NCBI GenBank assembly: GCA_900696645.1
Contig: CAADGV010000043.1
Span: forward strand, 1 to 64,000
Reading direction: 5' to 3'
Source: an uncultured Chlorobiota bacterium
GTDB lineage: Bacteria; Bacteroidota; Ignavibacteria; UBA10030; UBA6906
DNA length: 64,000 bases
The notes under the pieces were generated by a model. It was given only the letters and a program-made list of their open reading frames with translations, did no database searches and was not told the origin of the DNA. Within the stretch, counting starts at the first letter, position 1, and each line of letters begins with the position of its first letter. This document shows, in pieces, positions 34,425-50,000 of the stretch. Made by a program: the position numbers and the translations under genes.

Positions 34425-34946
34425 TCAAGACCCTGCGCCGGCTTCAGCCTTTTTCTCTTCGGAGTCCTTCTTTTCCTTCGCGCCCTCCGATTTGGCTTTC
34501 TTCGTCTTCTGCGGCTTGGCTTCTTTTTTTGTTTCCAGCTTTCCGGAAATTTCCTGTCCTGTGTTGAAATCCACCAACTCGATTACGGCCATCTCGGCGG
34601 CGTCGCCTTTGCGCTGCCCGAGCCGCACAATCCGCGTATATCCTCCCGGACGCGCCGCAACCTTCTCCGCAATCGTTGTAAACAATTCCTTGATTACGGA
34701 TCGATCTTTGATAAGCCGGCCAACTTCGCGGCGGGCATGAACTCCGACCGCCGGAGCATCCTGTTTTGAGGCCGCATTCTTCGCCCGCGTGATCAACTTC
34801 TCGACAACCATACGGGTCTCCTTTGCCTTTGCCACGGTGGTCGTGATCCGTTTGTGGCGCAGAAGCGAAGTCGAGAGAGATGCCAGCGTAGCACGGCGGT
34901 GACTGGCTGTGCGTTTGAGTTTACGTCCTGATTTGCGATGTCGCAT
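34425..34946 (-). CDS. rplQ: 50S ribosomal protein L17 with Lys/Glu/Ala-rich C-terminal extension
   Basis: [43 protein letters not shown]. Confidence 0.95.
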
Positions 34947-34986
34947 AATAGCTATCCAAAGAAAATTCTACTCGTGAAACAGCGAC

Positions 34987-35979
34987 TTAGTTTGTTTGAA
35001 TGTCGCCGATGTATTTCGTCACATCCATTCCGAACTTCAACTGCTCGCGCTCGATGATTTCGGAGAGTTCCGCAAGCGACTTTCGCCCGAAGTTGCGGAA
35101 CTTCAACAGCTCTGCTTCATCACGGCGAACGAGGTCGGCAATGGTTTTGATGTTCGCTGCCCGCAGGCAGTTGTGTGATCGAACGGAAAGTTCCAGCTCG
35201 TCCACAGGCGTGAGCAACACTTTGCGCACGCGGGAAAACTCCGCATCCATCTCGCTCTCCACCTTTTCCGCTTCCTGCTCTGTATCAAAATTGATAAAGA
35301 GTTGAATATGGTCGCGCAGAATCTTTCCCGAGTATGCCATTGCATCTTCGGGGGTGATCGAGCCATCCGTCTCTACTTCAAGAATCAGCTTTTCATAATC
35401 TGTCTGTTGACCCACACGGGTCGGCTCGACGAGATACCGGACGTTCCTGATCGGGGAGAAAATGGAATCAATAGGAATAACACCAACCGCCTGGTCTGCG
35501 GATTTGTTCTCTTCGGCGACAACAAATCCGATTCCCCGCCCGATGCGAATATCAAGCTCGAAGCTGGCGTCCGCATTCAGAGTTGCAATATGGAGATCGG
35601 GATTCAACACTTCGATATCCCCCGACACATCCTGAATATCCCGTGCTGTAAACTCGCGGGGACCCTTCAATGGAACGATAACCCGGTTGCTTTTCCTGTT
35701 GACAAGTTTCAGACGAACTTGCTTGAGATTCAGAATCATATCCGGCAGGTCTTCGACAACTCCGGGAATGGTCGAGAACTCGTGCTGCACTCCGTCAACG
35801 TGGATGGATGTGATGGCATATCCGGGCAAAGATGAAAGGAGGATACGGCGCATCGAATTGCCGATGGTGGTACCGAATCCCTTCTCAAGTGGCTGTACAA
35901 TAAACCGTCCGAAGGTGCCGGTGCGGCTCGATTCCTCGAGCTGTATGCGCTCCGGCATTTGGATTGTTCCTGCTGTCAT
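34987..35979 (-). CDS. rpoA: RNA polymerase subunit alpha
   Basis: FGRFIVQPLEKGFGTTIGNSMRRILLSSLPG; alpha-CTD LRAANIKTIADLVRRDEAELLKFRNFGRKSLAEL. Confidence 0.98.
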   Translation of the reverse strand: MTAGTIQMPERIQLEESSRTGTFGRFIVQPLEKGFGTTIGNSMRRILLSSLPGYAITSIHVDGVQHEFSTIPGVVEDLPDMILNLKQVRLKLVNRKSNRVIVPLKGPREFTARDIQDVSGDIEVLNPDLHIATLNADASFELDIRIGRGIGFVVAEENKSADQAVGVIPIDSIFSPIRNVRYLVEPTRVGQQTDYEKLILEVETDGSITPEDAMAYSGKILRDHIQLFINFDTEQEAEKVESEMDAEFSRVRKVLLTPVDELELSVRSHNCLRAANIKTIADLVRRDEAELLKFRNFGRKSLAELSEIIEREQLKFGMDVTKYIGDIQTN

Positions 35980-36001
35980 TGGCTACACACCTTGTTTGTG
36001 A

Positions 36002-36631
36002 TTACTTCGAATACAACTCAACGATCAACTGCTCGTCGGCATTCAGCGGAATATCCGCCCGCTCCGGGATGTTGAGAAATGTACCGGTCATAGTTGCTTT
36101 GTCAAGACTCAGCCACGGAAGCATGGCTGTGTCCTTCATTCTTTTCATCGATGCATGAAACACATCGAGCTTTCTGCTTTTTTCCCGCACCGAAATTGTG
36201 TCGCCCGACCTGAGCAAGTACGAGGGGATATCGACGGGCTTGTTGTTCACGAGAATGTGGCCGTGCGTAATCAACTGCCGGGCAGTTTTCCGCGACGGCG
36301 CCAGTCCGAGGCGGTACAGCGTATTGTCGAGACGGCGTTCAAGCATCTTTACCAACGTCTCCCCTGTTCGCCCGGTTTGCTTCAGCGCTTGCGAAAAGTA
36401 GTTGCGGAACTGGGTTTCCTGCAAACCGTACATGCGGCGAACCTTCTGCTTCTCGCGCAATTGCGTTCCGTACTCCGAAACCTTTGCACGCCGCGACTGC
36501 CCGTGCTGACCCGGCGCATAGTTCCGCCGCTCAACCGGACATTTCTCGGTGAAGCATTTTGTTCCTTTAAGGAACAACTTCTGTTTTTCTCGTCTGCAGA
36601 GCCTGCAGTTTGAATCGATGTATCTTGCCAT
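36002..36631 (-). CDS. rpsD: 30S ribosomal protein S4
   Basis: Start at MARYIDSNCRLCRREKQKLFLKGTKCFTEKC (track extends to 36703). Confidence 0.97.
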   Translation of the reverse strand: MARYIDSNCRLCRREKQKLFLKGTKCFTEKCPVERRNYAPGQHGQSRRAKVSEYGTQLREKQKVRRMYGLQETQFRNYFSQALKQTGRTGETLVKMLERRLDNTLYRLGLAPSRKTARQLITHGHILVNNKPVDIPSYLLRSGDTISVREKSRKLDVFHASMKRMKDTAMLPWLSLDKATMTGTFLNIPERADIPLNADEQLIVELYSK

Positions 36632-36672
36632 GAATCCTTCCTTTAATGATACCCCGTTGAGGGGGTTTGCAC

Positions 36673-37071
36673 TTACACTCTGCGTCGTTTCGGCGGCCGG
36701 CACCCGTTGTGCGGAATCGGCGTGATGTCGCGGATGGCGGAGATCTCGAGTCCTGCAACTTGCAGGGCACGAATTGCCGCTTCACGGCCGGAACCGGGGC
36801 CCTTCACAAACACCTCAACCTTTCGGAGTCCAAGCGAAAATGCGGTCTTCGCTGCGGCCTCTGCCGAGACTTGAGCCGCAAACGGCGTGTTCTTCCGTGA
36901 GCCCTTGAAGCCGTTCTTGCCCGCCGACGACCAGCTAATGGTGTTGCCGTAGATATCGGTAATCGTCACGATCACATTGTTGAATGTGGCCTTTACGAAT
37001 ACTTTGCCACTGATATCAACCGATATTTTTTTCTTCTTTTTTACTACGTCGCTTGAAGTGGTTTTTGCCAC
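36673..37071 (-). CDS. rpsK: 30S ribosomal protein S11 (GTG start)
   Basis: [30 protein letters not shown]...[13 protein letters not shown]. Confidence 0.97.
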
Positions 37072-37137
37072 GTCGTACTCCTTGTTCGTTTAGAATTCTT
37101 CCCGGCGCTCCGGCCTTTCACTGATGCACTGAACAGC

Positions 37138-37521
37138 TTACGTCTTCGCTGCCGCCTTCTTCTTGCCGGCAACAGTTTTGCGTTTGCCCTTGCGTGTACG
37201 CGAGTTGGTGCGCGTACGCTGACCTCGAACAGGCAGGCCCTTGCGGTGACGCAACCCGCGGTAGCAGCCGATATCCATCAGCCGTTTGATGTTGGATTGG
37301 ACTTCGCCGCGCAACGCGCCTTCCACTTTGTAGTCTGCGGTGATGACACCGCGGATCTTGGCAACCTCATCGTCGCTCAGGTCGGCAACTTTCTTGTCAA
37401 AGCTGATGCCGGCCTTGGTGAGAATTTCCGCCGCGGTTGCGCTTCCGACACCGTAAATGTACTGAAGGCCGATAATCGAACGCTTCTTTTTTGGTAAATC
37501 GACGCCAGCTATACGAGCCAA
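37138..37521 (-). CDS. rpsM: 30S ribosomal protein S13 (TTG start)
   Basis: [26 protein letters not shown]...[25 protein letters not shown]. Confidence 0.97.
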
Positions 37522-37549
37522 CTGACTCCTCCTTCAATTAGAAAACGAA

Positions 37550-37663
37550 TTAACCCTGACGCTGCTTGTGTTTCGGGTTCTTGCAAATCACGCGCACAAC
37601 ACCGTTGCGACGGATGATCTTGCAGTTGATGCAAATTTTCTTGACTGATGATCGTACTTTCAT
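37550..37663 (-). CDS. rpmJ: 50S ribosomal protein L36 (below the size cutoff of the ORF track)
   Basis: Manual translation [37 protein letters not shown]. Confidence 0.96.
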
Positions 37664-37717
37664 GCCTTACTTCTCCTTGTGTGCCGTCGCCGCTTCTCCA
37701 GCGACGGGCCGATACCG

Positions 37718-37936
37718 TCATTTGTATCTGTACGTGATTCTTCCTTTGGTGAGATCATACGGCGACAACTCGACGGTCACCTTGTCGCCGACAAGAATCT
37801 TGATGAAATTCATGCGCATCTTTCCGGAAATGTGGGCTAAAACTTCGTGCCCGTTCTCCAGACTGACTTTGAACATTGCATTCGGCAATGTATCCGTGAT
37901 AACACCGTCAACTTTAATGGGACCTTGTTTTGCCAT
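37718..37936 (-). CDS. infA: Translation initiation factor IF-1
   Basis: [45 protein letters not shown]. Confidence 0.97.
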
Positions 37937-37954
37937 ACTTCAGAAGTTCCGGAC

Positions 37955-38719
37955 TTAGCGTGTCAGAATTTCAGCTTCTCCTTTTCGTACAACAACTGTG
38001 TGCTCAAAATGCGCCGATGGCTTCCTGTCGACCGTTCTCACCGTCCAACCATCGGGATCGTGCTCTACTTTGTAGGTTCCGGCGTTCACCATCGGCTCGA
38101 TAGCAAGCACCATCCCCTCCTTCAACTTCACGCCTGTTCCGGGGTCGCCGTAGTTGGGAATCGCCGGCTCTTCATGCAAGCTCTTCCCTACGCCGTGTCC
38201 CACAAGGTCTCTTACAACCGAATACCCGTTTGCTTCTACATACTTCTGGACAGCAAACGATACATCATGAATGTGATTCCCTGCAACCGCTTTCTCAATT
38301 CCCTTGTAGAGGGATTCCTCCGTCACCCGCATCAGCCGCTGCTTTTCCGCCGAAATCCGACCGACAGCAAATGTTCGAGCGCTGTCACCGTAGTAGCCGT
38401 TCTTTCGAACACCGACGTCAATCGATACTATCTGCCCCTCTTCCAACTTTCTGCCGTTCGGAATCCCGTGAACCACCTCTTCATCTATTGAGATACAGAG
38501 GCTTGACGGAAACAAGTTCTTCTTGTCGCTGCCGTACCCCTTGAACGCCGGTGTACCGCCTCTTGACCTGATGAACCGTTCAGCAATCTCATCGAGTTCT
38601 TTCGCATCGACTCCGGGCTTGATCCTTGTTCCTACTAATGCAAGAACCTCCGCCACAATCTGACTACTCTCCCGAATCAACTCGATCTCGCGCGGCGACT
38701 TTATCGGAACTTTACCCAT
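37955..38719 (-). CDS. map: Methionine aminopeptidase type I
   Basis: SIDVGVRKNGYYGDSART, GHGVGKSLHEEP, MVLAIEPMVNAG. Confidence 0.96.
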   Translation of the reverse strand: MGKVPIKSPREIELIRESSQIVAEVLALVGTRIKPGVDAKELDEIAERFIRSRGGTPAFKGYGSDKKNLFPSSLCISIDEEVVHGIPNGRKLEEGQIVSIDVGVRKNGYYGDSARTFAVGRISAEKQRLMRVTEESLYKGIEKAVAGNHIHDVSFAVQKYVEANGYSVVRDLVGHGVGKSLHEEPAIPNYGDPGTGVKLKEGMVLAIEPMVNAGTYKVEHDPDGWTVRTVDRKPSAHFEHTVVVRKGEAEILTR

Positions 38720-38735
38720 AATGCTCTGCGCCCGG

Positions 38736-40061
38736 TTACCTCATCCGCCCTTTCAGCTTACCGGACTTCATAAACCCATCGTAATGTCGCATCAGGAGAT
38801 GCGACTCAAGTTGCTGTAACGTATCGAGCGCAACTCCCACCATAATCAACAAGCTGGTGCCTCCAAAGAATTGCGCAAAACTCGGTGTCACATTGAAACG
38901 CGACACAAATGCCGGGAGGATCGCCACGATCGCAAGAAAGACAGAGCCCGGCAGTGTAATTTTTGTCAGAATGTTGTCGATATAGTCTGATGTGTGTTTG
39001 CCGGGACGAATGCCCGGGATAAACCCGCCTTGCTTCTGCATGTTCTCCGCCACGTCTTTCGGATTAAAAGCGATCGCCGTGTAGAAATAGGTGAAGAAGA
39101 TAATCATCAATGCGTACACAACGGAATACGTGACCGAGGTATATTGGAAGTAACTCGCCGCTTCCTGCATCCATTCACTCGTCGGGAAGAACGTCACCGC
39201 CGTCTGCGGAATGAACATAATCGACTGGGCAAAGATAATCGGCATAACGCCCGCCGTGTTAACGCGCATCGGGATGTATTGCGTAACACCGCCATAGACT
39301 TTCCGACCGACAACACGCTTCGCGTACTGAACCGGAATTCTCCGCGTTCCCTGTGTTACGAGCACGACGCCCGCAACAACCGCAACCATGAAGGCAACCA
39401 GAACGGTTCCGATGATGATATTCTGGCTGACCACAAACTGATCGATGATCGAGTGCGGGAAACGGGCAATAATACCGATAAAGATGATCAGCGAAATACC
39501 GTTACCGATGCCTCGCTCGGTTATCTGTTCACCCAGCCACATCATGAAAATCGTCCCCGCCGTCAGGAAGATAACCGTCGAAAGAGTGAACGCTACTCCC
39601 TGCACAGCCTCCGGCACAATCGGAATACCGGCAACATTCAGATTCAGCAATCGAACGCTGACACCCCACGCCTGAAGCGATGCAACAAGCACGGTTCCAT
39701 AACGGGTCAACTGTGTCAGTTTGCGTCGTCCTTCCTCTCCTTCCTTCGAGAGTTTCTGGAAGTAGGGAACAACGGCGCCGAGCAACTGCAAGATAATAGA
39801 CGCGCTGATGTAGGGCATGATGCCCAATGCGAATACCGCCGCGTTCTGGAACGCGCCGCCCACAAACAAATCGTACAGCCCGAACAGCGTATTCTGTTCC
39901 TGATTCTTCACCGCCTGTGCGAGCAGAATCGCATCCACGCCCGGCAATGTTACGTGCGCCCCGATCCGAACCACAACGAGAATCAACGCCGTGAAAAGGA
40001 GTCGCGTGCGAAGTTCCTGAATCTTGAAAACGTTACGAAAACTGTCGACTAAGTTAACCAT
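38736..40061 (-). CDS. secY: Protein translocase subunit SecY
   Basis: SecY-family transmembrane sequence in canonical position; overlaps rplO stop by one base. Confidence 0.97.
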   Translation of the reverse strand: MVNLVDSFRNVFKIQELRTRLLFTALILVVVRIGAHVTLPGVDAILLAQAVKNQEQNTLFGLYDLFVGGAFQNAAVFALGIMPYISASIILQLLGAVVPYFQKLSKEGEEGRRKLTQLTRYGTVLVASLQAWGVSVRLLNLNVAGIPIVPEAVQGVAFTLSTVIFLTAGTIFMMWLGEQITERGIGNGISLIIFIGIIARFPHSIIDQFVVSQNIIIGTVLVAFMVAVVAGVVLVTQGTRRIPVQYAKRVVGRKVYGGVTQYIPMRVNTAGVMPIIFAQSIMFIPQTAVTFFPTSEWMQEAASYFQYTSVTYSVVYALMIIFFTYFYTAIAFNPKDVAENMQKQGGFIPGIRPGKHTSDYIDNILTKITLPGSVFLAIVAILPAFVSRFNVTPSFAQFFGGTSLLIMVGVALDTLQQLESHLLMRHYDGFMKSGKLKGRMR

Positions 40062-40543
40062 TATTCTTTCGGAGTTGAGCTGATTGTTTGCGCTTTGCCG
40101 CCTGCCTTTTCGATCTTCTCCTGGGCGGATTTGCTGAATGCATGCGCGGTAACGTCGAGCTTCGCATTCAGATCGCCATTACCAAGTACTTTCACCGGGG
40201 CGGACGATTTCTTGACGACACCAAGCTTGGAAAGAACCTGCGGCGTAATAACCCCCGACTGCAACTTCCCGTCTTGGGAGAGCTTTCCAAGCGTCTCGAC
40301 ATTGACTATCTGATATTCGACTCTGAACGGGCTGGTGAAACCCCGTTTGGGAACGCGCCGGACCAGCGGCATCTGGCCGCCTTCGAATCCGGCAACGAAA
40401 CGTGTTCCTGAACGGGAACCTGCGCCCTTGTGTCCGCGGGTAGAAGTCCCGCCATGACCTGAGCCCTGCCCTCTTCCGATACGCTTGCGCCGTTTGCGCG
40501 ACCCGGCTGCGGGTTTGAGATTGCTGAGAATATCCTTTGCCAT
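40061..40543 (-). CDS. rplO: 50S ribosomal protein L15
   Basis: LSNLKPAAGSRKRRKRIGRGQGSGHGGTSTRGHKGAGSRSG. Confidence 0.97.
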   Translation of the reverse strand: MAKDILSNLKPAAGSRKRRKRIGRGQGSGHGGTSTRGHKGAGSRSGTRFVAGFEGGQMPLVRRVPKRGFTSPFRVEYQIVNVETLGKLSQDGKLQSGVITPQVLSKLGVVKKSSAPVKVLGNGDLNAKLDVTAHAFSKSAQEKIEKAGGKAQTISSTPKE

Positions 40544-40576
40544 TTCTATCCTTATCTTGCTTGAGCGAAAACGGCG

Positions 40577-40762
40577 TCAGTTGATTTCTTCGACCGTCAC
40601 CAGATGGACAACCTTGCGAATCATGCCGCGAATTTGCGGTGAATCGTTTTTCTCGACAGAGTAACCCGGCCGTCCGAGGCCAAGCGCCTTGATCGTGCGC
40701 TTCTGCGGCTCAATCTGGTCGATGATGCTTCGCTTCTGTGTGATTTTCAGTTTCTTTGCCAT
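40577..40762 (-). CDS. rpmD: 50S ribosomal protein L30
   Basis: KITQKRSIIDQIEPQKRTIKALGLGRPGYSVEKNDSPQIRGMIRKVVHLV. Confidence 0.95.
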   Translation of the reverse strand: MAKKLKITQKRSIIDQIEPQKRTIKALGLGRPGYSVEKNDSPQIRGMIRKVVHLVTVEEIN

Positions 40763-40773
40763 TGCCTTCTACC

Positions 40774-41301
40774 TTATTGTGCAGACTGTGCAGTCGCTTG
40801 GTTGCCGAACAACTCCGGCAATGTAACACCGCGTCGTGATGCCACCGATTTCGCATCGGAAAGACTCTGCAACGCCGCCATTGTTGCCTTCACCACATTG
40901 TGCGGATTGGAGGAACCCATCGACTTCGTCAGAACATCTCTCACACCGGCAGATTCAAGAACAGCGCGAACGCCTCCACCTGCAATTAAGCCGGTACCTG
41001 GCGACGCGGGCTTCAACATCACACGTCCCGCACCGTACTTCCCGATTACTTCGTGAGGGATTGTTCCCTTGACGATGTGAACGAAGACGACATTCTTCTT
41101 CGCATCATCCACGCCTTTGGCTATTGCATCAGCTACTTCGTTTGCCTTACCGAGGCCGATGCCGACATGTCCCTTGCCGTCGCCGACTGCGACGATGGCG
41201 TTGAAGCTGAACCGGCGTCCGCCCTTCACAACCTTTGCAACACGGTTGATGTGGACGAGCCTGTCCTTCAGCTCCATATCACTTGCTTTAATTCGTGCCA
41301 A
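40774..41301 (-). CDS. rpsE: 30S ribosomal protein S5 (TTG start)
   Basis: [46 protein letters not shown]. Confidence 0.96.
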
Positions 41302-41350
41302 CGTTTTTCCTTCGTTAATGACCTTGTGAAAAACTTCCTGTGCTTCACTG

Positions 41351-41421
41351 CTCTCGGGCGTGGATTCGAACCACGATTAACGGCTCCAAAGGCCGCTGTC
41401 CTGCCATTGGACGACCCGAGA
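41351..41421 (-). tRNA. tRNA-Gln (anticodon TTG), CCA not encoded
   Basis: TCTCGGG-TC-GTCC-AATGGCA-GGAC-A-GCGGC-CTTTGGA-GCCGT-TAAT-CGTGG-TTCGAAT-CCACG-CCCGAGA-G; all four stems pair. Confidence 0.93.
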
Positions 41422-41433
41422 ATTTTTTCCGGT

Positions 41434-41457
41434 CGGGCGGGAGACAGCCTGCGCCCG
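41434..41457 (-). other. Hairpin between rplR stop and tRNA-Gln 5' end
   Basis: cgggcg ... cgcccg 6-bp GC stem with 12-nt loop. Confidence 0.4.
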
Positions 41458-41463
41458 GGCGAA

Positions 41464-41832
41464 TCAGAACTTCAGTCCGCCTTCCCGTGCGCCATCGGCC
41501 ATTGCTTTCACGACGCCGTGGTACAGGTACCCGTTCCGGTCGAACACCACTTCTTTGATATTTGCCGAGACGGCCTTTTTCGCAACCAGTTCGCCAACCT
41601 TCTTGCTGATGTTCATCTGGCCTTTGATGCCGTTGAAATCGCCCTTCAGGTCTTTCGAGATATCGGAAACCGACACCAGCGTTCTGCTTGTCGTGTCGTC
41701 GATGATCTGTGCATAGACATGTTTCGCGCTTCGAAAGATAGTCAGCCGCGGACGCTCGGGCGTTCCGGTGACACGCTTCCTGATATGCACTTTAATACGG
41801 CTGCGATTTTCTGATTTACGTTTCGTAATCAT
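41464..41832 (-). CDS. rplR: 50S ribosomal protein L18
   Basis: RIKVHIRKRVTGTPERPRLTIFRSAKHVYAQIIDD. Confidence 0.96.
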   Translation of the reverse strand: MITKRKSENRSRIKVHIRKRVTGTPERPRLTIFRSAKHVYAQIIDDTTSRTLVSVSDISKDLKGDFNGIKGQMNISKKVGELVAKKAVSANIKEVVFDRNGYLYHGVVKAMADGAREGGLKF

Positions 41833-41853
41833 GTTCTATCCTTAAAAACTCGG

Positions 41854-42405
41854 TTACTTGCCTGCGCCCGCCGCAGCAGCCTTCCCTGCCTTGCGACGAA
41901 TGTGTTCGCCCTCGTACTTCACTCCCTTGCCTTTATACGGCTCGGGCGGACGGAACGAGCGGATTTTCGCGGCGACTTGTCCCACCAACTGCTTGTCGAT
42001 ACCGGAAACCACGATACTCGTGGGGGTGGGCGTTTCAATTTTGATCGCTTCCGGAGGCCCGAACAGAATCGGGTGAGAGTAGCCGAGCGCGAGCTGGACC
42101 TTCTTCCCCTTCATTTCGGCCTTGTACCCGACACCGACCAGTTCGAGTTTCCGCGAGTAGCCTTCGGTAACGCCGGTGATCATATTCTGCATCAACGCAC
42201 GCCACAAACCGTGCAGCGAGCGGATTTCTTTTGCGTCCGATGATCGCGTTATGAACACCTGATTGTCCTTGATTTCAAACCCGATGTCTTCATGCACCTG
42301 TGCAGAAAGTTCCCCCTTCGGCCCTTTCACGGACACCTGCTGAGCCGTCCGCTGCACCTTGACGCCGTTTGAAATGTTGATTGGTTTTTTGCCAACTCGT
42401 GACAC
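41854..42405 (-). CDS. rplF: 50S ribosomal protein L6 (GTG start)
   Basis: MSRVGKKPINISNGVKVQ...PEPYKGKGVKYEGEHIRRKAGKA. Confidence 0.96.
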   Translation of the reverse strand: MSRVGKKPINISNGVKVQRTAQQVSVKGPKGELSAQVHEDIGFEIKDNQVFITRSSDAKEIRSLHGLWRALMQNMITGVTEGYSRKLELVGVGYKAEMKGKKVQLALGYSHPILFGPPEAIKIETPTPTSIVVSGIDKQLVGQVAAKIRSFRPPEPYKGKGVKYEGEHIRRKAGKAAAAGAGK

Positions 42406-42429
42406 GTTTCTTTCTCCTTACGTCAATAA

Positions 42430-42825
42430 TTACCAGATCTCACAGAGTACTTCGCCGCCGATTTTCGCGGCACGGGCCTGGCGATCCGTCATTAATCCTC
42501 GGGACGTTGACAACACTGCAATGCCCAGACCTCCCAACACTCTCGGAATGCTTTCCGCGTCCGAGTATTTGCGGAGCCCCGGAGAACTGATGCGCTTCAA
42601 CCCGCCGATGACCGGCTTCCCGTCGTTGTATTTCAACTGAATACGCAGGGTTCCTTGCGGGCCCGTTTTCACCTCCGTGAAGCCCGAGATCATATTTTGT
42701 GCGAGCAAAACCTTCGTCAACTCTCGCTTTAGGTTGGAGGCGGGAATATCGACACGTTTGTGCTTTGCCTGAAGGGCATTACGCAATCGTGTGAGATAAT
42801 CAGCTACCGGGTCTGTCATTGTCAT
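42430..42825 (-). CDS. rpsH: 30S ribosomal protein S8
   Basis: DPVADYLTRLRNALQAKHKRVDIPAS...GIAVLSTSRGLMTDRQARAAKIGGEVLCEIW. Confidence 0.96.
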   Translation of the reverse strand: MTMTDPVADYLTRLRNALQAKHKRVDIPASNLKRELTKVLLAQNMISGFTEVKTGPQGTLRIQLKYNDGKPVIGGLKRISSPGLRKYSDAESIPRVLGGLGIAVLSTSRGLMTDRQARAAKIGGEVLCEIW

Positions 42826-42878
42826 GTGTACAACTCCTGCTTCAATGTCTTGTGTTCTGAACGTAACGGCTCATCAAT

Positions 42879-43148
42879 CTACCAACTCGATTTCACGACG
42901 CCGGGAATCTTTCCATCAAGTGCCATGTCACGGAATGCAATACGTGACAGGCCGAATTTTCTGAGAAATCCGCGGGGTCTACCCGACATGGAGCACCGGT
43001 TGTGGAGACGCGTCGGTGCGCTGTTGCGTGGCAACTTCTGCAGCCCCGCAAAGTCTCCCTTCTCCTTCAGTTCCCGCCTGATGGCTGCGTACTTCGCAAC
43101 CATTTTCTGTCGTTTCAGTTCTCGTGCTTTTGCGCTTAGTTTTGCCAT
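42879..43148 (-). CDS. rpsN: 30S ribosomal protein S14 (long form)
   Basis: [51 protein letters not shown]. Confidence 0.96.
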
Positions 43149-43164
43149 GCCGGCAATTCTCCTG

Positions 43165-43857
43165 TTAGGATTTTTGAGTTTCCAGAACTTCCTGCCGCTT
43201 TACAAACGGGAAGCCCAATGACTTCAACAACTCGTATGCTTCCTGATCCGTCTTTGCTGTCGTAACGAACGTGATATCCATGCCGAAGATCTTCGAGATC
43301 TTGTCAACATCGATTTCGGGAAATACGATATGTTCTTTCAAACCAAGTGTGTAGTTACCGCGGCCGTCGAACGACTTGTCGTTCAGCCCGCGGAAGTCAC
43401 GCATTCGTGGAACAACAACCGCAACGAAGCGGTCAAAGAATTCCCACATGCGTGCCCGTCGGAGTGTCACTCTGCACCCGATTGGCATGCCTTCACGCAA
43501 CTTGAAATTCGAGATGGCTTTTTTCGCCTTCGTAATCACGACTTTCTGCCCGACAATCGATTCGAGATCACGCGCCGCAGAGTCAACCAACTTCGCATCC
43601 TGTGTTGCCTGCCCGACACCGATGTTCACCGAAATTTTCTCAAGCCGGGGAACCTGCATCACGCTTTTGTACTTGAAACGCTTCATCAATGCCGGAACAA
43701 CATCGGCGCAGTATGTTGTCAGCAAACGCGGAGTAACGCGTTCTTCCTTACCTGATGAGCGCGGCGCCTTGTCCGGAGCTTGCGCTGCAGCGGCGCCTTT
43801 CTCTTTCTTTTTCTCGGGTTTTGGAGCCCCGCCTTTTTTCGATTTCTCTTCAGCCAT
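43165..43857 (-). CDS. rplE: 50S ribosomal protein L5 with ~45-aa N-terminal extension
   Basis: Core [21 protein letters not shown]...; N-terminal [39 protein letters not shown]. Confidence 0.95.
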
Positions 43858-43919
43858 GGAACTGTGCTTTCATGATTATGGTGTGTCTGGTCTTTGTCAG
43901 ACAGTTGGTTCGATGTTCA

Positions 43920-44240
43920 CTAAAACGTTTCGCCGGTTGCCTTGGAAACGCGAAGGCGCGTTTTTTTGCCTGTCGTAGCGTCTTTGATCAACTTAGTGCC
44001 AACGCGTGTCGGCTCGCCGGTTTTCGGCTCGATCAGCATCACATTGGAAACGTTGATACTTGCCTCTTTCTGGACGATGCCGCCCTGCGGATTTTTCTGG
44101 CTCGGACGCGAGTGCCGCTTCATGATGTTGACGCCTTCAATAATCACGCGGTTCCTGTCCGGAAATACTTTCAGCACTTTTCCGGTTTTGCCTTTGGCGT
44201 TGCCGGAGATGACGATCACGTTATCGTTCTTGCGAATCAT
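43920..44240 (-). CDS. rplX: 50S ribosomal protein L24
   Basis: [53 protein letters not shown]. Confidence 0.96.
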
Positions 44241-44253
44241 TATTCTTCCTCAA

Positions 44254-44622
44254 TTACAAAACTTCGGGTGCGAGGGAAACAATCTTCATGTACTGCTTCT
44301 CGCGCAGTTCACGTGCCACGGGACCGAAGATACGGCTTCCCCGCGGCTCGCCTGCATCGTTTATCAACACCGCGGCATTCTCATCAAAGCGGATGAACGA
44401 GCCGTCCTTCCGTCGTGTTTCTTTCCGGGTTCTCACAATTACCGCTTTGGCAACTTCGCCCTTCTTTACTGTTGCGCCGGGGATGGCTGATTTCACGGCA
44501 ACAATCACCACATCGCCAAGTCCTGCATACCGGCGGTCGTGGCCGCCGAGCACGCGAATGCATCGCGCTCTTTTCGCACCGGAATTGTCGGCTACGACGA
44601 GATTGGTTTCTTCTTGTATCAT
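44254..44622 (-). CDS. rplN: 50S ribosomal protein L14
   Basis: [37 protein letters not shown]. Confidence 0.97.
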
Positions 44623-44646
44623 GACACTTTCTCCGTGGACAGCTGG

Positions 44647-44919
44647 TTACTTGGCTTTTTCGATAATTTCAACGAGGCGCCACCGCTTCTGCTTGCTGAG
44701 CGGACGGGTTTCCATAATTTTCACTGTGTCGCCAATCCCCGCTTCTCTCTTTTCGTCGTGTGCCATCAGCTTCGTTGTCAGTTTGAAGTACTTCTTATAG
44801 ATCGGGTGCGGCATCTTGCGCTCGATCGATACCGTAATACTCTTGTCCATTTTATTGCTGACTACTTTGCCGACACGCGTCTTGCGATGGGTGGTGCGTC
44901 GTTGTGTTGTCTCACTCAT
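44647..44919 (-). CDS. rpsQ: 30S ribosomal protein S17
   Basis: [43 protein letters not shown]. Confidence 0.96.
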
Positions 44920-45131
44920 GACTTCTTTGTCTCAGGTTGTTGTGCTTTCAACTTCTGGTTCAGAACTGTTTGAAGGCGGGCGATATCGCGCCGGACAGTT
45001 CTCACTTTTATCGGGCTCTCGAGCTGGCTTGTTGCCAGTTGGAACCGGAGGTTCGAGAGGTTTTCTTCCTCTTCCTGCAATCTCTTCTTCAGTTCTTCAA
45101 CCGGGAGATCCTTGATTTCGAGTGCTTTCAT
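44916..45131 (-). CDS. rpmC: 50S ribosomal protein L29
   Basis: [63 protein letters not shown] overlap with rpsQ. Confidence 0.94.
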
Positions 45132-45149
45132 TTCTTCTATATCCCTGTA

Positions 45150-45581
45150 TTAAGCCGCTGAACTCGTCCCGTAGTCGGGGCGGACACTGATTTTGGTTTT
45201 GATGGGCAACTTGTGCGATGCCAGGGTGAGTGCTTCAACAGCGACGGCTTTTGAGGTCCCACCGACCTCGAACATGATCCGTCCCGGCTTGACAACCGCC
45301 ACCCAGTATTCCGGCGCGCCCTTTCCGGAACCCATGCGGGTTTCCGCCGGCTTCTTTGTCACGGGTTTGTCGGGAAAAATGCGAATCCAGACTTTTCCTT
45401 CGCGCTTCATCATACGCGTAAGCGCGACACGTGCCGCTTCAATTTGGCGCTGGGTAATCCAACCCGGCTCGAGGGCCTTCAATCCAAAATCACCAAAATC
45501 GACATTCGAGCCGCGGGTGGATTTCCCGCGCATCCGTCCGCGCTGCTGTTTTCTGAATTTCACTCTCTTGGGCATCAACAT
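45150..45581 (-). CDS. rplP: 50S ribosomal protein L16
   Basis: [56 protein letters not shown]. Confidence 0.97.
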
Positions 45582-45593
45582 AACATCTGCTCC

Positions 45594-46259
45594 TTACTGA
45601 CTTTTACGGGCGAGTGATTGCTGGGAGTCGCCTTTACCGATCACTTCGCCTTTGCAAATCCACACTTTTACACCGATGGCACCGTACACCGTTCGTGCGG
45701 TTGCCGTTGCGTAATCGATGTCGGCGCGCAATGTATGCAACGGAATGCGGCCTTCTTTGTACTGCTCGCGCCGGGCCATTTCTGCTCCGCCCAACCGACC
45801 CGACGTCATCACACGCACACCCTCGGCACCCATTCTCATCGCTGCCGTGATGCCGTTCTTCATTGCACGACGGAATGCGATACGGCCTTCAAGTTGCTGC
45901 GCGATATTCTCCGCGACGAGATATGCATCGAGCTCGGGACGTTTGATTTCGTTGATGAGGATTTTGACTTCCTTGCTTGTAATCTTCTTCAATTCCTCTT
46001 CAAGTTGGGAGATTTCCTTTCCGCTCCGCCCGATTACAATACCGGGACGTGATGTATTGATGGTGATGACAGCCCGCTTGGGAGTACGTTCGATCAGAAT
46101 TTTTGAGATGCCCGCTTTCTTGAGACGGTTCCGAACGTAGTTGCGAATCGTTGCATCCTCCTGGATTTTTCCGGAGAACGACTTGTCATCGTACCAGTTG
46201 GAATCCCACGAGCGGATGATTCCCAATCTCAAACCAATCGGATTAACTTTCTGTCCCAA
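45594..46259 (-). CDS. rpsC: 30S ribosomal protein S3 (TTG start)
   Basis: [25 protein letters not shown]..., [19 protein letters not shown]. Confidence 0.97.
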
Positions 46260-46277
46260 TGTTCCTCCTTAGCGGGA

Positions 46278-46790
46278 TTACTCTGTGTCTTTTTCTTTCG
46301 AAGACGCTTTCTTTGTGCGGGTCTTCGGTTTTTCGGCTGCCGGTTCCGCTTTCTTAGTTTTCTTCGGCTTTGCTTCAGCCGCAGCCGGTTCAGGTGTTGC
46401 CGTCTTTGCTTTCGTTGCCTTCGACTTCGCAGCAGGTTTGGCAACATGTTTTTCGCCCTGCACCACAATCGTCACATGATTCGAGCGCTTGCGAATCCGG
46501 TAAGCGCGGCCCATCGGCGCCGGACTGATGCGCTTCATCGTCATCCCGCCATCAACGAACGCCTCCTTCACCATCATGTCGGAAGTTTCGAGCCGTCCGC
46601 CTTCATCTTTGTTCTGCAGATTCGAGACAGCGGAACGAAGCACCTTCTCGGCCGTTCGTGCCGCATGCTTCGGTGAAAAGTGAAGAATGTGTAATGCCTG
46701 GTCGACAGACTTTCCGCGAATCAAATCAATCACCAGCCGCATCTTGCGCGGCGATGTCCCGACATATCTGTTGATTGCTCGTGCTTCCAT
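46278..46790 (-). CDS. rplV: 50S ribosomal protein L22 with ~60-aa Ala/Lys/Pro-rich C-terminal extension
   Basis: [29 protein letters not shown]...[16 protein letters not shown] then [30 protein letters not shown].... Confidence 0.95.
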
Positions 46791-46828
46791 GTGTTGAAAT
46801 TTCCTGAGAATGCTTTATCGTTTATCTG

Positions 46829-47116
46829 TCAACCGGCTTTCGACGACTCTTCCTTCTTCACGCCGGGATGAACCCTGAACACACGTGTCGGCGCGAACTC
46901 ACCAAGCTTGTGCCCGACCATTCCCTCATGCACGTACACAGGGATGAATTTGTTCCCGTTATGAACGGCAAACGTGTGGCCGACAAATTCCGGCGTAATA
47001 GTGGATGCACGCGACCAGGTTTTGACAACTTTCTTCTGGTTGGATTTGTTCAGTGCCGTGACTTTCTCCTGCAGCTTGACGCTGACAAACGGGCCTTTTT
47101 TGAGCGAACGACTCAT
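46829..47116 (-). CDS. rpsS: 30S ribosomal protein S19
   Basis: [19 protein letters not shown]...[30 protein letters not shown]. Confidence 0.97.
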
Positions 47117-47139
47117 GCTCTGCTTTTCCTAAGTTAGAA

Positions 47140-47967
47140 TTACTTTCTGCGCTTGACGATATACTTGCTTGTCGGATTCTTTCTCCAACGCGTTTTCTTT
47201 CCTTTTGTATGCCAGCCCCACGGCGACACCGGATGCGGATTGCCTTGCGGCGACTTTCCTTCACCGCCGCCGTGCGGGTGATCGACAGGGTTCTGGACAA
47301 CTCCGCGTGATTGCGGGCGAATACCCAGCCATCGTGAACGTCCCGCTTTGCCGAGGCTGAGGTTCTCGTGCTCGGGATTGCTTACCATTCCGATTGTTGC
47401 CATGCACTCGGCATGAACATTCCGAACTTCGCCGGAAGGGAGACGCAACTGGGCAAACTTTCCTTCCTTGGCCATCAACTGTACAGAGGCTCCGGCGCTG
47501 CGCGCAAGTTGTGCACCCTTTCCGGGTCGCAACTCAATGTTGTGCACGAACGTACCGGGCGGAATGTTTGCAAGCGGCATGGCATTGCCGTTCTTGATTT
47601 CCGCATCGGCGCCGGAACGTAACACTTCACCGACCTTCACGCCGTCAGCAGCAATAATATAGCGTTTCTCGCCATCGGCGTACTGGAGCAATGCGATGCG
47701 CGATGTACGGTTCGGATCGTATTCAATGGCCACAACTTTGGCATCCATTCCGAGCTTGTTCCGCTTGAAATCGATGATGCGGTACATTTGTTTGTGCCCG
47801 CCGCCGCGGTGACGGGAGGTAATGCGCCCCGTATTGTTGCGTCCTCCGGATTTGCGCAAAGGCTCAAGCAGTCGCTTCTCGGGCCGTGACTTCGTGATCG
47901 TGGCAAAATCGGACACCGACATCCATCGGGTTCCTGCCGTCATTGGTTTGAGTTTACGAATTGCCAT
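47140..47967 (-). CDS. rplB: 50S ribosomal protein L2
   Basis: [27 protein letters not shown]...[33 protein letters not shown]. Confidence 0.98.
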
Positions 47968-47997
47968 AGTTCAACTTTCGGATGTTACAGCGTTCTC

Positions 47998-48288
47998 TTA
48001 CACGTTCTGGAAGAATTCAATCTTGTCGCCTTCCTTGAGCCGCACATATGCTTTCTTCCAGCTCGATGTACGGCCTGCGAAACGACCACGGCGCGTCATC
48101 TGCGATTTTGCTTTCCCTTTATGCGTGGCTGTGCGTACGCCCAGAACGGTGACGTTGAATTTCTTCTCAACCGCCTTCTGAATCGAAATTTTGTTTGCGT
48201 CCTTTTCCACTTCGAACGCGTAGACGCCTTTGTCCTGCATTTCAGTCAGTTTTTCCGTAACAATGGGGCGCTTCAGAATCCCTACCAT
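47998..48288 (-). CDS. rplW: 50S ribosomal protein L23
   Basis: MVGILKRPIVTEKLTEMQDKGVYAFEVEKDANKISIQKAVEKKFNV. Confidence 0.95.
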   Translation of the reverse strand: MVGILKRPIVTEKLTEMQDKGVYAFEVEKDANKISIQKAVEKKFNVTVLGVRTATHKGKAKSQMTRRGRFAGRTSSWKKAYVRLKEGDKIEFFQNV

Positions 48289-48299
48289 AACGTTCTCTC

Positions 48300-48929
48300 T
48301 TATTGCTTGAATGTGTTATGAAGAACTTCAACGGCGCTCTTCTGGAACAAGATCACCTGGTTGTTCACCAGATCATAGGTCGACGCCTTGTCTGCACGAA
48401 GCACCTGCACGCGCGGAATGTTTCGTCCCGATTTGTAGACGTTCACGTCACCGGTTGCCGTCAGCACCAGAGTCTTGCTTGAATCCAACTGCAACGCCTT
48501 CAGCACAGCAGTCATCTCCTTGGTCTTCGGACTGTCGAACGAAAAATCCTCGACAACTTTGATCTGGCCTTCTTTTGCTTTCGCGGAGAGTGCCGACTTG
48601 CGCGCCAACTTTTTCATTTGTGCCGGCAGTTCGCTCGAATAATCACGCGGCTTCGGTCCGAAAATCGATCCACCACCTGTCATAACGGGAGATCGTGATG
48701 TTCCCTGGCGGGCATTGCCGGTACCTTTTTGCTTGAACGGTTTCTTGCCGCCTCCGCGAACCTCCGCACGTGTCTTCACTTTGTGTGTACCCTGACGCTG
48801 ATTGTCGAGATACGAACGCACAGCCATGTAGATTGCATGCTGGCTCGGTTCGATACCGAAGACATCGGGCGAGAGCTTCACCGTCTCGCCGCTCTTCGAT
48901 CCGTCTTTTTTATAGACTTCCAATTCCAT
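48300..48929 (-). CDS. rplD: 50S ribosomal protein L4
   Basis: Start trimmed to MELEVYKKDG; GGGKKPFKQKGTGNARQGTSRSPVMTGGGSIFGPKPRDY. Confidence 0.95.
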   Translation of the reverse strand: MELEVYKKDGSKSGETVKLSPDVFGIEPSQHAIYMAVRSYLDNQRQGTHKVKTRAEVRGGGKKPFKQKGTGNARQGTSRSPVMTGGGSIFGPKPRDYSSELPAQMKKLARKSALSAKAKEGQIKVVEDFSFDSPKTKEMTAVLKALQLDSSKTLVLTATGDVNVYKSGRNIPRVQVLRADKASTYDLVNNQVILFQKSAVEVLHNTFKQ

Positions 48930-48945
48930 CTCAATACTCGTACGA

Positions 48946-49578
48946 TTAGTGTGCAACAACCTTGTGAATCTCAACATACCCGTTAATTGCGCCGGGTACC
49001 GATCCCTTGACCAGCAGGAGGTTCGAATCAGGAATAACGCCGACAACTTTAAGATTGCGAACTGTTACCTGCTCACCACCCATACGTCCCGCCATACGCA
49101 AGCCTTTGAAAACACGAGAGGGATAGGATGACGATCCGATGGATCCGGGCGCCCGCTCGCGATCGCTTTGACCATGCGTGCGAAAACCGCCGCCGAAATG
49201 ATGACGCTTCACGACACCCTGGAAACCCCGACCCTTCGACGTTCCGATGATCGAGACTGTGTCGCCTTTTGTGAAGACGGCCTCGACCTTGATTTCCTGT
49301 CCGGGCTGAACCTCGGAAACGCCGTTACCGCGAAACTCGCGCACGATGCGCAACGGTTTTGTGTTCGCTTTCGCAAAATGGCCGTTCATCGGCTTGTTGG
49401 CAAGACGTTCGGCTTTCTGATCGAAGCCCAACTGCACCGCTTCATATCCATCACGCTCTTTGGTTTTGACCTGCGTGACAAAGCACGGCCCGGCCTCGAT
49501 AACGGTACAGGGAATCACCTGGCCTGCATCATCGAAGATACTGGTCATCCCGATTTTTTTTCCTAATAGTCCTGTCAT
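48946..49578 (-). CDS. rplC: 50S ribosomal protein L3
   Basis: Start trimmed to [34 protein letters not shown]. Confidence 0.96.
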
Positions 49579-49691
49579 GATAGCATCCAAATAAAGATAC
49601 ACCTCTCTTGTCGGTTGCGCAGCGGCACAAACGTCCACTCTCCCGCAAGAACCCTTACGAGATTACACTCGCACCAAATTGTCAAAAAGAG

Positions 49692-50000
49692 TTACACTTT
49701 GATCTCGACGTCGACACCCGCGGGTAAATCAAGCTTCATCAAGGAGTCGACTGTCTTGTTGGTCGAGTTGAGTATGTCAATGAGACGTTTGTGAGCACGC
49801 GTCTCAAATTGCTCTCTCGACTTCTTGTCAACGTGAGGAGATCGAAGCACAGTATACACCGTACGCTTCGTGGGTAACGGTATCGGGCCTGAAACCACAG
49901 CGCCTGTTGACCTTACAGTCTTGATGATCTTCTCCGCAGACTTGTCGATCAGGTTGTGGTCGAACGACTTAAGCTTTATGCGAATCTTTTGCCCGGCCAA
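49692..50000 (-). CDS. rpsJ: 30S ribosomal protein S10 (TTG start)
   Basis: [66 protein letters not shown]. Confidence 0.97.

Follow-up and report, generated by a model that had tools for sequence, protein, structure and literature searches.

A tRNA-Gln(UUG) gene carried as an inherited part of the spc ribosomal-protein operon in Ignavibacteria-like bacteria

The tRNA gene at the rplR-rpsE junction

The window, that is, the whole 64,000-nucleotide stretch analysed, contains an S10-spc-alpha ribosomal-protein cluster in which a tRNA gene lies between rplR and rpsE (Table 1). ARAGORN called a tRNA-Gln with anticodon TTG at 41350-41421 of the minus strand, the sole tRNA called in the window. Rfam family RF00005 matched at 41351-41421 with 61.8 bits (gathering threshold 29, E-value 5.7e-11). 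All 21 of the 21 stem pairs are formed. Glutamine identity follows from a weak 1-72 pair and G73; read from the sequence, the window tRNA has both of these elements as well as the TTG anticodon. The gap that holds the gene measures exactly 162 bp, with both neighbours on the tRNA strand, and no other true intergenic gap separating adjacent genes of the S10-spc-alpha cluster is as large, most of them measuring 11-66 bp. The sequence-only reading had described a complete same-strand tRNA with paired stems in a 162-bp rplR-rpsE gap, and ARAGORN, RF00005 and the stem pairs agree with this description.

Table 1. Features at the tRNA-Gln locus (window coordinates)
Feature	Position	Strand	Remarks
tRNA-Gln(UUG) gene	41351..41421	-	U1-A72, G73, no encoded CCA
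Leader, 42 nt, rplR stop to tRNA 5′ end	41422..41463	-	predicted pairing with both tRNA acceptor strands
Trailer, 49 nt, tRNA 3′ end to rpsE start	41302..41350	-	AAGGA SD-like stretch at ~41308-41312
rplR (ribosomal protein L18), upstream neighbour	41464..41832	-	
rpsE (ribosomal protein S5), TTG start, downstream neighbour	40774..41301	-	
S10-spc-alpha ribosomal protein cluster enclosing the tRNA	34425..50000	-	every gene on minus strand

In an alignment of about 31-32 distinct orthologues, 99.8% of the stem cells were paired. Both-sided changes were observed in 9 of the 21 stem pairs, a value equalled in none of 500 shuffles. Judged from these sequences, the window tRNA-Gln is a functional gene under selection for structure. 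A pseudogene, a degenerate tRNA or a chance fold is rejected by the Rfam score and the compensatory pairs and, the gene being also the sole TTG glutamine gene found, is hardly conceivable.

The source genome (4.2 Mb in 46 contigs, rated 100% complete) contains 44 tRNA genes. Typing of all 44 showed that the spc copy is the only tRNA-Gln(TTG); the sole other Gln gene, of type CTG, adjoins tRNA-Glu(CTC) on a different contig. A search of the genome with a tRNA-Gln model returned the same two genes and no further match. The number of tRNA-Gln genes, which had been proposed as a point to check, is thus two, TTG in the spc operon and CTG elsewhere. Standard decoding rules do not let a CUG tRNA read CAA. 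Since no other tRNA-Gln(TTG) was found, the spc tRNA-Gln(UUG) should therefore be essential for reading CAA, a presumption subject to the possible incompleteness of the genomes. Codon bias was rejected as an explanation: the CAA fraction is 0.28 in ribosomal-protein genes versus 0.36 in the other window genes, with no enrichment. In one relative, G013, the spc tRNA (L103 1380-1451; G013:C46:24847-24917) carries a GTG (His) anticodon in place of TTG. The rest of the tRNA matches that of the sister L099, which bears TTG, and a tRNA-Gln(TTG) was not found elsewhere in G013. A sequencing error is the likeliest origin; if real, such an anticodon change would look lethal.

Few bacterial gene strings are as conserved as the spc operon. 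Among the 40 closest relatives, nearly every genome having both genes places the tRNA ~40-80 nt ahead of rpsE, family f6 being the exception. For a survey of the class, the positions of tRNA-Gln (model R1) and of RpsE were compared in 149 genomes, with coordinates for both in 147. The tRNA was found at the junction in 72 of these 147 genomes, on the same strand and 31-291 nt upstream of RpsE. It is present in all sampled genomes of ten families (f1, which is the window's own family, f2, f3, f5, f7, f14, f16, f18, f55 and f56) and in zero sampled genomes of 14 families (f6, f8-f13, f15, f19, f20, f53, f54, f57 and f58). Melioribacter and Ignavibacterium MAGs (L043, L053) are among the carriers. 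Gap lengths fall into two groups, mostly 15-57 nt where the tRNA is missing and 110-243 nt where it is present. As the sequence-only reading had supposed, the junction is normally tight, since nearly all tRNA-less relatives fall in the shorter range. The junctions of relatives show that the insertion is not peculiar to this genome but has been inherited in ten families or more.

Several junctions depart from these patterns. Long gaps lacking the tRNA were observed in L077, L079 and L052 (110-122 nt) and in L078 (76 nt), which belong to Kapaibacterium-like relatives and one KSB1-like relative. The gap of G397 (L147 275-515) holds two tandem tRNA-Gln genes, TTG then CTG. In the MAG G019 (= G407), the rpsE/tRNA locus occurs twice, on contigs C18 and C438, probably reflecting a mixture of two strains. 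RpsE matches G008:C108:23778-24288 as two overlapping pieces in different frames, which suggests a frameshift or an assembly error.

Transcription and probable excision of the tRNA

We give a probability of about 0.8 to the following reading. The spc operon carries the only tRNA-Gln(UUG) gene as a fixed, inherited part; the tRNA would be obtained by read-through and excision, with splitting of the message and an output tied to growth. Anatomy, uniqueness, conservation and structure come from the sequence; co-transcription, cutting and growth-coupled supply are what we infer.

The spacing at the junction bears on the origin of the transcript. In many relatives and families, the rplR stop codon and the tRNA 5′ end are separated by just 4-9 nt (6 nt in G218, for example), which leaves no room for an independent promoter within the gap there. 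A scan of 40700-42450 detected no terminator-like site and only one promoter-like match on the operon strand, located upstream in rplF. Promoters of the Bacteroidota type (TTTG, about 19 nt, TAnnTTTG) were searched for by comparison with shuffles, such scans recognising only common motifs. None above shuffles was found in f1 (the window), f2, f3, f5, f7, f14, f18 or f56. In f16, a TTTA-N19-TATATTTG-like element was observed just upstream of the tRNA in 14 of the 15 members (leaders L198-L211). This element starts in the rplR stop region, with a fixed 19-nt spacing and a constant position with respect to the stop. From its sequence, the f16 tRNA probably also has a promoter of its own that would supplement read-through, so that read-through is not the only route everywhere.

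A tRNA that forms an independent transcription unit within the gap, driven by a promoter of its own in rplR or in the leader, would account for the f16 element and its constant spacing. This reading is quite improbable, given that no such element rises above shuffles in the other families scanned, that many relatives have 4-9 nt spacers and that the window lacks a terminator after the tRNA. Indeed, as no terminator follows the window tRNA, even a promoter-borne transcript would run into rpsE; neither the promoter nor the terminator of an independent tRNA unit was found in the window. The short spacers in relatives, together with the lack of a promoter or a terminator in the window gap, make excision from the ribosomal-protein transcript by far the likeliest route, and read-through of this transcript is likely to be the tRNA source in most families. 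The sequence-only reading had stated that the tRNA must be excised from the ribosomal-protein mRNA. Excision is upheld by the missing terminator, the missing f1 promoter and the 4-9 nt spacers; family f16, with its probable additional promoter, calls for a qualification.

In the read-through reading, the tRNA would fold within the ribosomal-protein message. RNase P would cut at the tRNA 5′ end, directly after the rplR stop codon, and a 3′ endonuclease or exonucleases, together with the CCA-adding enzyme, would complete the tRNA. A bacterial RNase P RNA was found in the genome (288 bits), and the genome's match to the RNase Z family model scored below the cut-off. Each excision would leave two half-messages, a proximal one with rplR and a distal one with rpsE. 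The distal half would have a new 5′ monophosphate end and would be translated from its own ribosome-binding site; an SD-like motif precedes rpsE in 50 of 59 tRNA-bearing loci. Hairpins in the leader and in the trailer were no more stable than expected (mean z -0.23 and +0.32).

The output of tRNA-Gln(UUG) would in this way be bound to the transcription of ribosomal-protein genes, itself increasing with growth rate. A link between Gln-tRNA supply and ribosome synthesis had been proposed from the sequence. The tie is supported because the sole tRNA-Gln(TTG) found lies in the spc operon; regulatory coupling of tRNA-Gln supply to the operon is a further step that we infer. A tRNA fixed in the spc operon over ten families would hard-wire tRNA supply to ribosomal-protein transcription and, as the sole tRNA-Gln(UUG) found in this genome, should force cutting of the message for the reading of CAA. 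Cultured M. roseus would offer a natural and testable case in which tRNA excision is balanced against intact ribosomal-protein mRNA.

Predicted leader pairing and history of the insertion

Folding predicted a lower acceptor-stem probability with native flanks than with shuffled flanks. For 32 non-redundant loci with a leader of at least 13 nt, the value was 0.30 with the native leader as compared to 0.64 with shuffled leaders (p = 1e-4) and 0.59 with GC-matched swapped leaders (p = 5e-4). Dinucleotide-shuffled leaders gave a Fisher p of about 1e-7 over 34 loci (f1, f2, f3, f5, f18, f55/56) and a p of 1.8e-5 over the 13 loci of the window's family, in statistics where families were grouped after seeing the data, relatives are not independent and the energy models misfold many tRNAs. 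No pairing effect was detected with f16 leaders (p = 0.46), nor any leader effect in a control with the 43 other tRNAs of this genome (p = 0.42). A second locus set taken alone did not reach significance (p = 0.15).

The hot spots of leader pairing are tRNA positions 1-12 and 63-69, corresponding to both acceptor strands. Reverse-complement similarity between leader and tRNA is enriched (p = 0.007-0.01), unlike direct repeat similarity, a pattern that argues against a decayed tandem copy. A relic of tandem duplication was on this ground rejected as the source of the pairing, though G397 shows a real tandem duplication. A simple anti-acceptor duplex, evaluated by its energy to the tRNA 5′ end, was likewise set aside, with non-significant p values of 0.08 against shuffles and 0.32 against swaps. 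The f18 leaders (L212-L219) contain between rplR and the tRNA a conserved TTAGCGGCCCTAACT motif that is predicted to be able to pair with GGGUCG-U-CUAA of its tRNA. The L088 leader (G015) shows two strong GC-rich hairpins, GGTGGCGCGGGACGCGCCACC and TGGCGCGGGACGCGCCA, forming a direct repeat.

Predicted leader pairing above chance in most promoter-less families may be taken as a statistical hint, not a proof, of a processing switch. Excision could be regulated if, in these families, an anti-tRNA segment of the leader paired with the acceptor strands. A sequestered form, unprocessed and expressing rpsE, would then alternate with a released-tRNA form, perhaps under the control of ribosomes at the rplR stop. 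The shuffle tests and the GC-matched swaps, the lack of effect in the control tRNAs and in f16, the position of the hot spots, the enrichment of reverse complements over direct repeats and the f18 motif all point in this direction. Against it, the pairing is a thermodynamic prediction drawn from families grouped post hoc and from loci related by kinship, the second locus set and the plain duplex energy are not significant, and families with 4-9 nt spacers cannot hold such a leader. Overall, we consider regulated excision rather unlikely. A shade less likely still is the more specific proposal of an anti-tRNA leader acting as a nascent-mRNA switch, possibly via rplR translation, that would set tRNA folding, RNase P excision and the fate of the downstream message. 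If true, the tRNA would serve, within a ribosomal-protein operon, as a site of conditional cleavage.

A tree built with five spc proteins of 109 loci was used to follow the history of the insertion. Four changes in tRNA presence are required on it, versus ~37 with shuffled labels; the count alone cannot tell gain from loss, and the starred branches alone force only two changes. The best-fitting reading of these sequences is one ancient gain, close to the root of the Ignavibacteria-like group, followed by three losses. In this reading, the losses concern f6, the clade of L029-L037 and L022. Each loss lineage encodes another tRNA-Gln(TTG) elsewhere: the f6 gene is of a distinct sequence type (TGGGGTGTAGCCAAG...), and in the other loss lineages the tRNA-Gln(TTG) model scores are equally low (67-69 bits). 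Among class members, tRNA type corresponds one to one with location, as would be expected if the gene moved once and was then inherited vertically. In genomes beyond the class, the spc-type tRNA is found away from rpsE (for instance in G068, G122, G056, G111 and G221).

The same linkage fits a positional accident, in which the tRNA landed once in the operon and was kept as an essential, single-copy gene that is hard to move, its location having no regulatory meaning. This would also agree with losses occurring where another tRNA-Gln(TTG) exists and with the lack of leader conservation from one family to another. The persistence of the tRNA over ten families and the non-random leader pairing suggest, without proving, more than an accident, and we give the accident slightly less than an even chance. 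Such an accident would not conflict with excision from the operon transcript; it denies only a benefit of the location.

Comparison with known tRNA-bearing operons

The locus has the layout of a mixed tRNA-mRNA operon: the tRNA lies on the operon strand between protein genes, with no promoter or terminator of its own in the window and in most families, f16 having its promoter-like element. The gene partners are rplR and rpsE, not tufB nor rpmG/secE, and the locus is therefore not a member of the tufB or secE operons. In the tufB operon of enterobacteria (thrU-tyrU-glyT-thrT-tufB), tRNA genes likewise share an operon with a translation-factor gene, and some of these tRNAs are the only readers of a codon (PMC6134099). 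Those tRNAs are located upstream of a single protein gene, whereas the spc tRNA splits a long run of ribosomal-protein genes; both the tRNA and its position are different.

The available part of another study assigns rpmG and tRNA-Trp to an ancestral secE operon, and no mention of the spc tRNA-Gln was found in that part (PMC8046335). As described there, the rpmG-tRNA-Trp-secE-nusG arrangement resembles the present one by a tRNA beside a ribosomal-protein gene in the same conserved cluster (PMC8046335); it differs in operon, tRNA and position. This secE-type arrangement also exists in this genome, about 25 kb upstream of the spc tRNA. Just past the window (L116 1126-2158; G000:C43:66126-67158), genes for tRNA-Thr, Tyr, Gly and Thr are followed by rpmG, tRNA-Trp, secE and nusG. 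These genes form the classic secE/tufB-type end of the same cluster, with its tRNAs but lacking tuf. For Melioribacter roseus, the accessible part of the genome paper gives 45 tRNA genes, with no mention found there of a tRNA-Gln in the spc operon (PMC3534657). In the literature searched, rplR, rpsE and tRNA-Gln were not found named together.

The E. coli secG-leuU polycistronic transcript, studied by Mohanty and Kushner in 2008, is reportedly processed by RNase P and resembles the spc case in that a tRNA is cut from a protein-coding message. In secG-leuU, the tRNA stands at the end of a short transcript, whereas the spc tRNA is inside an essential ribosomal-protein operon. Overall, mixed tRNA-mRNA operons are already known and, by the literature searched, the interior of the spc operon is a new position among them for a single, fixed tRNA.
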